From positions 1-64,000 of the forward strand of contig NZ_LAQU01000013.1 of the NCBI RefSeq assembly GCF_000970345.1: a stretch of 64,000 nt of DNA, read 5' to 3'. Below are positions 24,323 to 28,713 of this stretch, piece by piece. A model generated the notes under the pieces. The model did not search any database. It was not told the DNA's origin and worked only from the letters and a program-made list of their open reading frames with translations. A program made the translations under genes and the position numbers. This DNA comes from Robbsia andropogonis. Lineage in GTDB: Bacteria; Pseudomonadota; Gammaproteobacteria; Burkholderiales; Burkholderiaceae. The stretch's first letter is position 1; the number at the start of each line of letters is the position of its first letter.

Positions 24323-26626
24323 ATGTCCACACCCGTCAATGCCAAACTGCGCGAAGCCGCGCTCGATTACCACGAATTTCCGACGCCGGGCAAGATCGCC
24401 ATCGCCGCGACGAAACAACTGATAAACCAGCGTGACCTTGCGCTGGCGTACTCGCCCGGCGTTGCCGCCGCGTGTGAGGAAATCGTCAAGGACCCGTTGA
24501 ATGCGGCGCGGTTCACGGCCCGCAGCAATCTCGTGGGGGTGGTATCGAACGGTACGGCGGTGCTGGGGCTGGGCAATATCGGTCCGCTGGCGTCCAAGCC
24601 GGTGATGGAAGGCAAGGCTGTTCTATTCAAGAAATTTGCCGGTATCGATGTATTCGACATCGAGCTGAACGAAATGGACCCGCATAAGCTTGTGGACGTG
24701 ATCGCGGCGCTGGAGCCGACGTTCGGCGGTATCAACCTCGAAGACATCAAAGCACCGGACTGCTTCGTCGTCGAAAGCGAATGCCGCAAGCGGATGAAGA
24801 TCCCGGTCTTTCACGATGACCAGCACGGCACGGCGATTGTCGTGGGCGCGGCAGTGACGAACGGCTTGAAAGTGGTCGGCAAGCCGATTTCGGAAGTCAA
24901 GCTCGTCTCGTCCGGCGCCGGCGCGGCGGCGCTCGCCTGTCTGGAGTTGCTGCTCGATCTCGGGTTGAAGCTCGAGAACATCATCGTGACCGACCTGGCC
25001 GGGGTGGTGTACAAAGGTCGCACCGAACTGATGGACCCCAAGAAGGAGCAGTTCGCGAGCGATACCTCGCATCGGACCTTGGCCGAAGCGATTGAAGGCG
25101 CCGATATTTTTCTGGGCCTGTCGGCCGGTGGCGTGTTGCAGCCGGAGATGGTCGCGAAGATGGCGAAGGATCCGCTGATCCTGGCGCTGGCGAATCCCAA
25201 TCCAGAAATCATGCCGGAGGCGGCGCTGGAAGTGCGGCCGGACGCCATCATCGCCACCGGCCGCACCGACTACCCGAATCAGGTTAACAACGTCCTGTGT
25301 TTCCCGTTCATCTTCCGCGGTGCACTGGATGTCGGCGCGACCACGGTTACAAAGAACATGGAAATCGCCGTCGTCAATGCGATCGCCGAATTGGCCCGCC
25401 AGGAACAAAGTGACGTGGTGGCCACGGCCTACGGCATCGAAGACCTGTCGTTTGGTCCGCAGTATCTTATTCCCAAGCCATTCGACCCGCGCCTGATCGT
25501 GAAGATCGCACCGGCGGTTGCAAAGGCGGCCATGCTCGACGGCGTGGCCACGCGGCCGATCGAGGACATGGACGCCTACGAACAGCATCTGCAGCAGTTC
25601 GTCTATCAAAGCGGCACGATCATGAAGCCGGTGTTCCAGGTGGCGCGCGCCGCCACGCCGGAGCAGAAGACCATCGTGTTCAGCGAAGGGGAAGAAGAGC
25701 GGGTCCTGCGCGCGGTGCAGATCCTGGTGGACGAGAAGATCTGCTTCCCGATCCTCGTGGGTCGTCCCGCGGTTATCCAGCAACGCATTACGCGTTATGG
25801 ACTGCGTCTGGTTCAGGATCAGGACTTCCGTATCGTCAATCCGGAGTTCGACGAACGCTATCGCGACTATTGGCAGACGTATCACAAGATGCAGGCCCGT
25901 AAAGGCACGACCGCCCAATCGGCCAAGCTGGAAATGCGTCGTCGTCCCACGCTGATCGGCTCGATGCTGGTGAAGAAAGGCGAGGCGCGAGGCCTGATTT
26001 GCGGCACGATCAGTACCACGCATCGCCATCTGCACTTTATCGACCAGGTAATCGGCAAACGGGAAGGCGCGACCGTCTACGCGGCGATGAATGCGCTGCT
26101 GCTGCCAGGGCGCCAGATTTTCCTAGTGGATACCCACGTCAACTATGATCCGACACCGGCGGAACTGGCCGAAATCACGATCATGGCGGCCGAGGAAGTG
26201 CGCCGTTTCGGCATCGAGCCGAAGATCGCACTGTTGTCGCATTCGAATTTTGGATCAAGCAAGGGTCCAAGCGCGCAGAAGATGCGCGATACGCTGGAGA
26301 TCCTGCAGCAAACAGCACCGGATCTGGACGTGGACGGCGAAATGCACGGCGATGTCGCATTGGACGCGCAATTGCGTGCGGACCAATTGCCGGATTCCAC
26401 GTTGCAAGGTAACGCGAATCTACTGGTCATGCCGAATATAGACTCGGCAAATATTGCCTATAACCTGTTGAAAGTCGCCGCCGGCAACAATGTAGCGATC
26501 GGTCCGATCTTGCTGGGTGCAAAGCAGCCGGTGCATATTCTGACGGCATCTGCGACGGTGCGACGAATCGTCAACATGGCAGCGTTGCTGGTGGCGGATA
26601 TCGTTGCCGAGGAACTGCGGCATTGA
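24323..26626 (+). CDS. maeB: NADP-dependent malic enzyme with phosphotransacetylase-like domain
   Basis: The 767-residue protein is a two-domain MaeB. The malic-enzyme half (about 1-425) shows [15 protein letters not shown], the metal site region [16 protein letters not shown] and the NADP loop [19 protein letters not shown]. The second half (about 430-767) resembles phosphotransacetylase and in the E. coli homologue acts as a regulatory domain, not an active transferase. It oxidatively decarboxylates malate to pyruvate. The ATG at 24323 gives the conserved [20 protein letters not shown] start. Confidence 0.95.
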
Positions 26627-26856
26627 TCGCGCGCATGTGTCGGTTATTTTCGTGATCGACACGTTTCGCTTTACTCCCTTCCGTCCCCCGTCGTGCGGGG
26701 ACAACCGTCACCTCATGGTGCGCGTCGCAATCGTCGTAAATTCCGATATCTGATTGATTTGCTTGTGCCTTCGGGGTAGGCTAACGCCTTGGCGCGTATT
26801 ATTTCGCGGTTTTTCTAATGCGGCGATGAACTCGGCCGCCTGGCTGGTGTCTTAGC

Positions 26857-27357
26857 ATGGGGAAGTGGGCGGCCCGTACCGCGGCAGCGGCGTTGATGGC
26901 GTTTGCCTGGTTAGGTGTTGGAACGGGGAGCGCCGTCGACGGTTTGCCGGCTGCCGGGTTTGGCGTGCATGGGCAGGGGTTGCGGATCGTTGCGGCCGCC
27001 GATGCGCGGCAGTCGCGCTACTCCGAAAATGGCGACGCGGGGGACCCGAACGGTGCGGCGACGTTCGCGGGGCCAACGCTCGAGAAGCACGCCTTACCCC
27101 TTGAGGCGCAGCGGGTATTGATCCAGATTCGTGATGGCGGGCCGTTCCGGTATGACAAGGACGGCATCGTTTTCGGCAACCGCGAAAAGTTGCTGCCGCG
27201 CGAACCCCGCGGCTATTATCGGGAGTATACGGTGCCAACGCCGCGCGCGAGGGATCGCGGAGCGCGGCGCATTGTGTGTGGCGGGCCACCGAGACAGCCA
27301 GATGCCTGTTTCTACTCGGACGACCATTACAGTAGTTTCAAACGAATCCAGGGATGA
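26857..27357 (+). CDS. Secreted barnase-like guanyl-specific ribonuclease
   Basis: The 166-residue precursor has a basic N-terminus and hydrophobic segment (about residues 3-25) that look like a signal peptide with cleavage near GSA-VD. After a linker, the RNase domain (about 78-166) carries the microbial N1/T1/barnase pattern: catalytic E123 in GYYREYTVPTP, an arginine cluster in RDRGARRIV, and H157 in YSDDHYSSFKRI, close to barnase's TDHYQTF. C141 and C151 flank a loop and could form a disulphide, consistent with export. The next gene, 7 bp downstream, encodes a barstar-like inhibitor. Target and physiological role are unknown. Confidence 0.85.
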   Translation: MGKWAARTAAAALMAFAWLGVGTGSAVDGLPAAGFGVHGQGLRIVAAADARQSRYSENGDAGDPNGAATFAGPTLEKHALPLEAQRVLIQIRDGGPFRYDKDGIVFGNREKLLPREPRGYYREYTVPTPRARDRGARRIVCGGPPRQPDACFYSDDHYSSFKRIQG

Positions 27358-27364
27358 CAACGGT

Positions 27365-27913
27365 ATGAGCGGCAACCATTCTGCGCAAGAGACCGTGGTC
27401 GCAGTTGATCTTTTCGGGCGTAGCGACTTGAACCTGTTTCGGCGGGTCATGTCACTGCGCGATAGTGCGGTGGAGCGCCAGCCGGCGGCTCCGAGCGCAC
27501 CCGACGACACGACGGTCGACATGTTTCGCACGGTGCGGTCAAACATCGTGCAGTCGATCCGCGCGTTCCGCATCGTCGATCTCGCCGAACAGGCGAAGCG
27601 CCTGGACCAGCATTTCTTCTATGCCGATTGCTCCGCGGCGAACACGAAAGCCGAAGTACTGGAAGCCATTTCACGCGCGTTTTATTTCCCGAAGCACTTT
27701 GGGAAGAATTTCGATGCGTTATACGACTCGCTGACGGATCTGGTTGCCAAGTCAGGACGTCAGACGGGTTTTGTGATCGTCCTGGATAGCTTGCCGGCTG
27801 TGCAAAAGTTCGACAAGGAAGCCCGTGAGAACCTGTTGGACGTTTTTCGCGAAGCGTCCGAGTTCTGGGCGGAACGGAGCGTGTCCTTCCGGGTGTTCTA
27901 CTCGTTTATCTGA
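27365..27913 (+). CDS. Barstar-family ribonuclease inhibitor
   Basis: The 182-residue cytoplasmic protein has a C-terminal barstar domain (about residues 90-182) with the family core of a Phe-Pro-x-x-Phe-Gly-Lys-Asn-Phe-Asp-Ala-Leu-Tyr-Asp motif (FPKHFGKNFDALYDSLTDL). About 85 extra N-terminal residues precede it, longer than classical barstar (about 90 aa in total). It lies 7 bp downstream of the secreted RNase gene, so it probably protects the cell from that enzyme before export. The ATG at 27365 is the first in frame after the RNase stop. It converges on rsmE with only 20 bp between. Confidence 0.85.
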   Translation: MSGNHSAQETVVAVDLFGRSDLNLFRRVMSLRDSAVERQPAAPSAPDDTTVDMFRTVRSNIVQSIRAFRIVDLAEQAKRLDQHFFYADCSAANTKAEVLEAISRAFYFPKHFGKNFDALYDSLTDLVAKSGRQTGFVIVLDSLPAVQKFDKEARENLLDVFREASEFWAERSVSFRVFYSFI

Positions 27914-27933
27914 TCTCTTGTTGCAACGCGGTG

Positions 27934-28713
27934 TCACCATCCGCCCCAGCGTCCGGCCAACGCGGCGAGGACGGCCATGCCGGCGGTTTCAGTGCGTAAC
28001 ACCCGCGGCCCGAGTGATAGCGCGGTGACACCGGCCGCGCGCGCGGCAGCCTCTTCTTCCATGGACCACCCCCCCTCGGGACCGATCCATAACTGGATCG
28101 GCGCGGCGGGGGGCGTGATTGGCAGTTCGGCGAACGTGGTTGCAGCGCGCGGTGATAGCAACCAGCGCAATGGCGTGAGCGCACCCTCTTGCGAGCCGCT
28201 TGTCTCCGCCGTGTTCCGCGTCGTTGCCTCCAACCAGCGATCGAACGGCTGCGGGACCCGCACCGTCGGGATCACATTGCGCCCACATTGCTCACACGCC
28301 GCCCGCACCAGTGCTTCCCAGTGGGCGTGCCGCCGTTCGAGCCGCTCGCCTTGTAGCTTGACGACGCTGCGGTGCGCGAGTATCGGCGTGATCGTGTCGA
28401 CCCCCAGTTCCACGGCCTTTTCGATCAGCCAGTCCATCTTTTCGTTGCTCGCCACGCCTTGCACCAGATCGATCCGGTAGGGTGGCTCCGCGGCAGCGGC
28501 ATTCACCGTTGCAGTCAGCACGGTGGCGTGCGCGCTGCGTTTTTCCAGGGCATCGAGCCGCGCGTCATAGGCGTTGCCGTCGCCGTTGAATACGGTCAGC
28601 AAATCGCCTTCGCGTAGTCGCAGGACTTGCAGATGCCGGACGGTTTCGGCGGGAAGCGTTAGCGATGTGCCGGTGCTGAGCGGCAGATCGACAAAGAATC
28701 GGGGGCTGGACAT
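27934..28713 (-). CDS. rsmE: 16S rRNA (uracil1498-N3)-methyltransferase
   Basis: The 259-residue SPOUT-class enzyme methylates U1498 of 16S r[12 protein letters not shown] at the N-terminus, [23 protein letters not shown], and the knot motifs [19 protein letters not shown] and [20 protein letters not shown] are conserved. The start codon lies within 15 bp of a minus-strand -10-like TAGAAT (28725-28720), so the message would be nearly leaderless if that element is used. Confidence 0.94.

Follow-up and report, generated by a model that had tools for sequence, protein, structure and literature searches.

Barstar is the textbook single-purpose inhibitor of a ribonuclease. RNase Sa of Streptomyces aureofaciens with its relatives (PF00545) and the barstar of Bacillus amyloliquefaciens (PF01337) are the described counterparts of the two proteins treated here. 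According to the text of Zhang et al. 2012 that was accessible (PMC3482391), simple stand-alone barnase-barstar gene pairs are widely distributed, with a stand-alone RNase gene followed by an inhibitor gene as in the locus treated here. The same text ties Imm-barstar specifically to barnase-like toxins, whereas the inhibitor studied here is often found alone. For STM3363, a barstar-like protein of Salmonella, the accessible part of PMC4534456 reports that a knock-out gave more swarming. That protein is likewise of the barstar family and is the nearest hint of other jobs for barstar-like proteins. No description of the orphan inhibitor group (inhibitors without a detected RNase) was recognised in a search of mostly non-subscription literature that included the accessible portions of PMC3482391, PMC7146069 and PMC4534456.

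The pair was analysed in a 64,000-nucleotide stretch of Robbsia andropogonis DNA, called the window. The pair itself is of an ordinary, known kind. What is new is that many genomes have retained the inhibitor after loss of the RNase; its RNase-facing loop has changed there, and a module that bears a motif has hardly changed at all. Most simply read, the orphan pattern suggests a second, RNase-independent function. If a clade keeps a barstar without the RNase, alters the loop and freezes another module, an antitoxin can become anchored in genomes by a second job. The natural series of paired, broken-RNase and orphan loci separates RNase-binding residues from those kept for something else.

Locus layout

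The features of the pair, in window coordinates, are listed below.

26857..27357, + strand: RNase Sa-type ribonuclease, presumably guanyl-specific, 166 aa (PF00545, E 1.3e-20; RNase Sa chains by sequence and model)
26857..26934, + strand: likely Sec signal peptide of the RNase, residues 1-26 (read by eye)
27223..27327, + strand: presumed catalytic residues E123, R134, R138 and H157 of the RNase (aligned to RNase Sa E54, R65, R69 and H85)
27277..27309, + strand: cysteine pair C141-C151 of the RNase, possible disulfide (joint presence or absence in 29 sequences)
27365..27913, + strand: extended barstar-family RNase inhibitor, 182 aa (PF01337, E 9.1e-28; model against solved barstar)
27365..27520, + strand: N-terminal tail of the inhibitor, residues 1-52, variable and predicted mostly disordered (low pLDDT in the model)
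27533..27607, + strand: predicted beta-alpha module of the inhibitor, residues about 57-81 (strand 61-64 and helix 70-79 in the model)
27542..27571, + strand: conserved motif NIVQSIRAFR, inhibitor residues 60-69 (kept in orphans of two families)
27689..27742, + strand: RNase-facing loop and helix start of the inhibitor, residues 109-126 (aligned to barstar 27-44; conserved in paired loci, changed in orphans)

Both open reading frames lie where an earlier note on this DNA had placed them, with a spacer of 7 bp (27358-27364) between RNase and inhibitor, and a profile search found one copy of each gene in the genome. The pair is flanked by the gene for NADP-dependent malic enzyme on one side and by rsmE (convergent) and a transketolase gene on the other, in agreement with the position between the malic enzyme gene and rsmE given previously. 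The absence of a link to mobility was likewise borne out: the pair was found in 0 of 50,697 phage records and in 1 of 72,556 plasmid records (35% identity), and its chromosomal place is conserved in Burkholderiaceae. ARAGORN and Rfam (gathering thresholds) gave no match in the window, NCBIfam had no family for the RNase or the inhibitor, PADLOC gave no match for the pair, and promoter and terminator scans of positions 26600-28000 stayed at chance level.

The ribonuclease

Residues 66-165 of the RNase matched PF00545 at 74.2 bits against a cut-off of 24, and RNase Sa chains were matched by sequence with E values down to 1.7e-22. The model aligned to RNase Sa chains with TM scores by target of 0.82-0.88, the best match having 46% identity and a TM score of 0.83. 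Fold and catalytic residues are common to RNase Sa and its relatives, and identity in the fold matches was 41-48%. E123, R134, R138 and H157 align with E54, R65, R69 and H85 of RNase Sa, which we take to be the catalytic positions, and are identical in 29/29 aligned sequences, the window's own included; E123 and H157 had been named as catalytic before. The protein had been called a secreted barnase-like RNase. Inspection by eye makes a signal peptide likely, and by sequence and model the RNase is of the RNase Sa type rather than barnase itself.

The RNase is likely exported, judging by a likely signal peptide read by eye at about residues 1-26, and this peptide would speak against a cytoplasmic toxin of a type II toxin-antitoxin module. 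As a stand-alone ORF of 166 aa rather than the tip of a large modular delivery protein, the RNase was not classed as a polymorphic toxin. Its AF2 model had a pLDDT of 64.6 overall, with values <50 at residues 1-6 and 8-66 and a disordered linker. This linker (residues 27-65) is without a counterpart in most aligned relatives, whose rows mostly begin at the domain.

C141 and C151 are the sole cysteines of the window RNase. Both are present in 21/29 aligned sequences, neither in 8/29 and a single one in 0/29. This joint pattern fits the oxidised pair proposed in the earlier note and may reflect a disulfide; a single evolutionary event may also be enough to explain it. RNase Sa has a terminal disulfide, and this has no counterpart in the window RNase.

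The inhibitor

Residues 83-179 of the inhibitor matched PF01337 at 96.5 bits against a cut-off of 23.4. The model aligned to a solved barstar with Z 8.6 and rmsd 2.4 over 88 residues, spanning residues 82-180, and over this span the fold is common to the barstar of B. amyloliquefaciens. D117, D121 and E163 are the equivalents of barstar D35, D39 and E76, presumably its acidic RNase-contact residues, and all three are there. The description of the protein as an extended barstar-like inhibitor is in keeping with the profile match and the model. It has 182 aa compared with about 90 residues in the solved Salmonella barstar chain. Relative to the Bacillus barstar it adds a tail, a beta-alpha module and the conserved NIVQSIRAFR, and it is often kept without a detectable RNase. 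A search of solved structures with a 30-row inhibitor profile gave coverage of the barstar core only.

The AlphaFold2 model of the inhibitor had a mean pLDDT of 73.9, with values <50 at residues 1-20, 36-42 and 44-51 and a low-confidence helix at 24-34. The model places two further elements, a strand at 61-64 and a helix at 70-79, ahead of the canonical barstar strand at 83-88. In a 1.1 Mb relative, an ORF of 132 aa has its start opposite about residue 51 of the window inhibitor. Because of the disorder in the model and the conservation of the motif, the "extra" N-terminus is read as a mostly disordered tail (1-52) followed by a conserved module (about 57-81). It had been put at about 85 extra residues of unknown use. 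The variable tail fits that description; the module does not, since its NIVQSIRAFR ranks among the most strictly kept parts, also where the RNase is missing.

Residues 47-182 of the model also aligned to AAA+ chains of ORC5 (Z 8.0-8.4, 125-126 residues, rmsd 3.5-3.8), and a weak AAA_22 match occurred in 5/30 inhibitor members. An AAA+ (ORC-like) identity was not adopted because the Z score is middling and no Walker A was seen by eye.

Distribution in the Burkholderiaceae

The window's family (f1) is the Burkholderiaceae, judged from named relatives. A sample of 200 genomes from 25 genera was searched, and "paired" denotes a tblastn match to the RNase rather than a proven intact gene. The inhibitor was matched in 185/200 genomes (21/25 genera) and the RNase in 157/200 genomes (15/25 genera). 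Eight RNase-positive genomes were without a match to the window inhibitor; since a barstar was found by HMM in 8/8 of them, an RNase match without a barstar occurred in 0/157 at the genome level. Conversely, 36 of the 185 inhibitor-positive genomes were RNase-negative, and a PF00545 search of these 36 found none over the cut-off and two matches at E 0.26. Among the orphan-bearing genomes are 22 from g13, with sizes of 1.7-2.2 Mb, and four from g8, with sizes of 1.1-1.2 Mb. In 4/4 g8 genomes of 3.3-3.8 Mb, the inhibitor is intact and the coding sequence of the neighbouring RNase is distributed over different frames. The inhibitor is absent in 7/43 RNase-less Burkholderiaceae genomes, five of the seven being 0.2-0.5 Mb in size.

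The order malic enzyme-[RNase]-inhibitor-rsmE-tkt was found with and without the RNase among the loci read, which have short flanks, some of them without one or more neighbour genes; four small g8 loci show no rsmE. Of the fixed chromosomal toxin-immunity unit described in the earlier note, the conserved place and the inhibitor stand, the latter being near-universal in the family. The RNase is not fixed, being without a match in 36 inhibitor-bearing genomes and frame-broken in four more. In an order-wide sample of 200 genomes, PF00545 was missing in 13/85 inhibitor-positive genomes. Of the PF00545-positive genomes, 4/76 had no match to the window inhibitor, and in these four a home-made profile found a barstar-like ORF around the RNase.

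A plain toxin-immunity pair, in which the inhibitor protects only against its own RNase and the orphans are decaying leftovers, would agree with the PF00545 and PF01337 membership of the two proteins and with their co-location. Retention of the gene in the four g8 genomes of 1.1-1.2 Mb, at loci without RsmE in the flank, argues against decay, and we regard this explanation as very unlikely also in view of the substitution data below.

The RNase-facing loop and the motif in orphans

Distinct inhibitor rows, 85 paired and 21 orphan, were compared; 23/36 orphan loci had been read (9/22 in g13). The comparison excluded two paired loci in whose chosen frame the script detected no motif (L099 and L117), the divergent orphan L149, the likewise divergent L150, which has an RNase, L073, whose contig stops short of the RNase position, and six duplicate loci. 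The four broken-RNase loci were kept apart from the paired/orphan comparison. H111, F112, G113, D121 and D125 align to barstar 29, 30, 31, 39 and 43, which we assume to be RNase-contact residues, as we do for the full list of 14 interface sites. In the 85 paired rows these five residues are present in 84, 85, 85, 85 and 83, and in the 21 orphans in 1, 3, 8, 16 and 6, respectively. N60 and V62-R69 are kept in 21/21 distinct orphans.

The orphans were also grouped into seven lineages, outside which stands the g19 orphan (L149), too divergent and with a motif trace only. By lineage majority, H111 is kept in none of the seven, F112 in one and D125 in two, and the paired-modal V57, N60 and V62-R69 are kept in 7/7. 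The difference between interface sites and other conserved sites by lineage majority had a permutation p of 2.6e-4; the list of 14 interface sites was set down after the column counts were known and predates only the second-family test. A tree was built without the 14 interface columns and is weak, with 57/106 inner branches open; parsimony needs six paired/orphan label changes on it, and starred branches force two. By parsimony, the 14 interface sites had 46 changes on orphan branches and 36 elsewhere, compared with 233 and 447 at the 101 other sites outside the motif (Fisher p 1.5e-4). Within loop 109-113, 27 changes fell on orphan branches and 2 elsewhere.

This concentration of changes in the RNase-facing loop speaks against decay of leftovers. 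Decay would fit the still intact inhibitor loop (3/3 distinct rows) of the large g8 genomes whose RNase is broken, and the altered C-terminus of the inhibitor in one reduced genome (G059, 1.2 Mb).

The orphans might instead have been re-targeted, a changed loop specificity directing them against other RNases that come from competitors or belong to other toxin systems. The loop differs among lineages, and its altered form is fixed in g13, with Q111, Q112, A113 and T125 in 9/9 loci read. Because it is fixed in 9/9 loci although dS is saturated, the g13 loop is not simply unconstrained, which favours re-targeting. Imm-Barstar is listed also beside the RNase toxin family Ntox21 in the accessible text of Zhang et al. 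(PMC3482391). Re-targeting alone leaves the conserved motif away from the loop unexplained, and the genomes of 1.1-1.2 Mb, which probably belong to obligate symbionts, should meet few competitors. We consider this explanation unlikely, but a serious rival.

Selection on orphan inhibitors

dN/dS was tabulated for 6 of the 9 g13 loci (15 pairs), with dS finite in 7 pairs at 1.3-2.4, near saturation. In these 7/15 pairs, dN/dS of the orphan inhibitor was 0.008-0.035. RsmE gave 0.037-0.072 in the 6 comparable g13 pairs and was above the inhibitor in each. Other orphan groups had inhibitor dN/dS values of 0.049-0.080. The orphan G016 had 0.087 and 0.129 against its paired sisters, compared with 0.041 for sister against sister. 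From these values most orphan genes are under purifying selection, and one recent orphan (G016) is partly relaxed. The raised dN/dS of G016 agrees with decaying leftovers; the g13 values, taken where dS is measurable, are lower than those of RsmE from the same pairs and speak against them.

A second family

The second family (f8) is probably the Oxalobacteraceae, from likeness to named Herbaspirillum and Glaciimonas loci. PF00545 was found in 125/245 f8 genomes. Of the 120 RNase-negative genomes, 80 were tested, and the inhibitor was present in 55/80 and missing in 25/80. The inhibitor is not strictly essential, because it is absent in these 25 genomes and in the seven RNase-less Burkholderiaceae genomes noted above (of 43).

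All 55 f8 orphan loci (51 distinct proteins) and 33/125 RNase loci were read. Each of V57, N60 and V62-R69 is conserved in 48 to 51 of the 51 orphans, and site 61 is variable in orphan and paired alike. H111 is present in 2, F112 in 5, G113 in 20 and D121 in 7 of the 51 orphans. The 25 paired, motif-bearing inhibitors have H (19) or Y (5) at site 111, F112 in 23, G113 in 24 and D121 in 24. The interface test in f8 gave a permutation p of 7.7e-4 with sites >= 85% conserved in the paired set, by which H111 is excluded.

Among f8 orphan loci with long flanks, purN and an rsmB-like gene follow the inhibitor in 5/5 and a patatin-like gene is present in 3/5. This is the place of the named paired loci (patatin-like gene, RNase, inhibitor, purN, rsmB-like gene). 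Two loci counted as orphans carry RNase remnants beside the inhibitor (31 residues in L190, an internal stop in L196); because the remnants adjoin the inhibitor, the RNase was lost in place there. At L228 and L241 (2/25 motif-bearing paired f8 loci), the RNase is apparently intact and the inhibitor loop is changed. L222, L234, L239 and L240 (4/29 paired f8 loci) have a barstar type without the motif.

The chromosomal place of the pair in f8 (L103, L116, L277-L281) differs from the one that it occupies in Burkholderiaceae, between the malic enzyme gene and rsmE-tkt. A connection with rRNA methylation, through rsmE in one family and the rsmB-like gene after purN in the other, was set aside because the neighbours differ and rsmE is convergent.

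At 4/33 f8 RNase loci (L219, L246-L248), a barstar was not found in the stretch fetched around the RNase. L219 has an RNase Sa-type gene directly adjoining purN. L246, L247 and L248 (g133) have a divergent secreted RNase-like ORF, and other members of g133 keep the inhibitor without a PF00545 match.

The motif as a possible structural element

NIVQSIRAFR was seen in families f1, f8 and f49. The few barstars read from f6, f10, f17, f21, f23 and f38 have another sequence in the motif stretch. The motif could be purely a structural strand of an elongated barstar fold that binds no partner. In the model it forms a strand ahead of the barstar core, so its conservation could be structural, which counts against a second function, and a comparable stretch stands in the same place in barstars of other Burkholderiales families (few loci, by eye). 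However, the sequence differs in those families, yet in two families ten positions show next to no variation, and structure alone leaves the keeping of the gene without an RNase unexplained. A purely structural motif appears unlikely to us.

Proposed roles of the inhibitor

The distribution, the broken RNase genes, the gene place shared by loci read with an RNase and without one, the loop change, the motif conservation and the low dN/dS were observed directly. On this basis the inhibitor is probably bifunctional, combining a putative inhibition of the RNase with an RNase-independent function through the motif-bearing face. We infer both the inhibition of the co-encoded RNase and the partner of the second face.

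In the proposed mechanism, one locus would provide an exported RNase Sa-type ribonuclease and a cytoplasmic barstar-family inhibitor. From what is known of the family, the loop around 109-126 would block the active site of the RNase until export, and the RNase would then act outside the cell. A second face of the inhibitor, formed by the NIVQSIRAFR-bearing N-terminal module together with further conserved segments (148-162 among them), would serve an RNase-independent cellular role via a putative partner. This role would hold the gene in place after loss of the RNase, and the RNase-gripping loop would drift or be replaced. A stronger version is possible, and we put it forward tentatively: in Burkholderiaceae and the second Burkholderiales family, the extended barstar might be primarily a core cellular protein that acts through its NIVQSIRAFR module on a conserved partner, with RNase inhibition secondary and dispensable.

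Divergent relatives

When 274 genomes of the class were searched with an inhibitor profile, 10 gave a match, and three of these belong to the window's own order. The 7 matches outside the order begin at profile position 40 or later (the motif is at 38-47), and the one that was read (L289) is without the motif. A genome of 2.0 Mb in which no RNase was detected has a divergent barstar-like ORF (L282:3845-4321) with 27% identity to the window inhibitor. Its RNase loop is unrecognisable, and the motif trace GSIRNW is kept.
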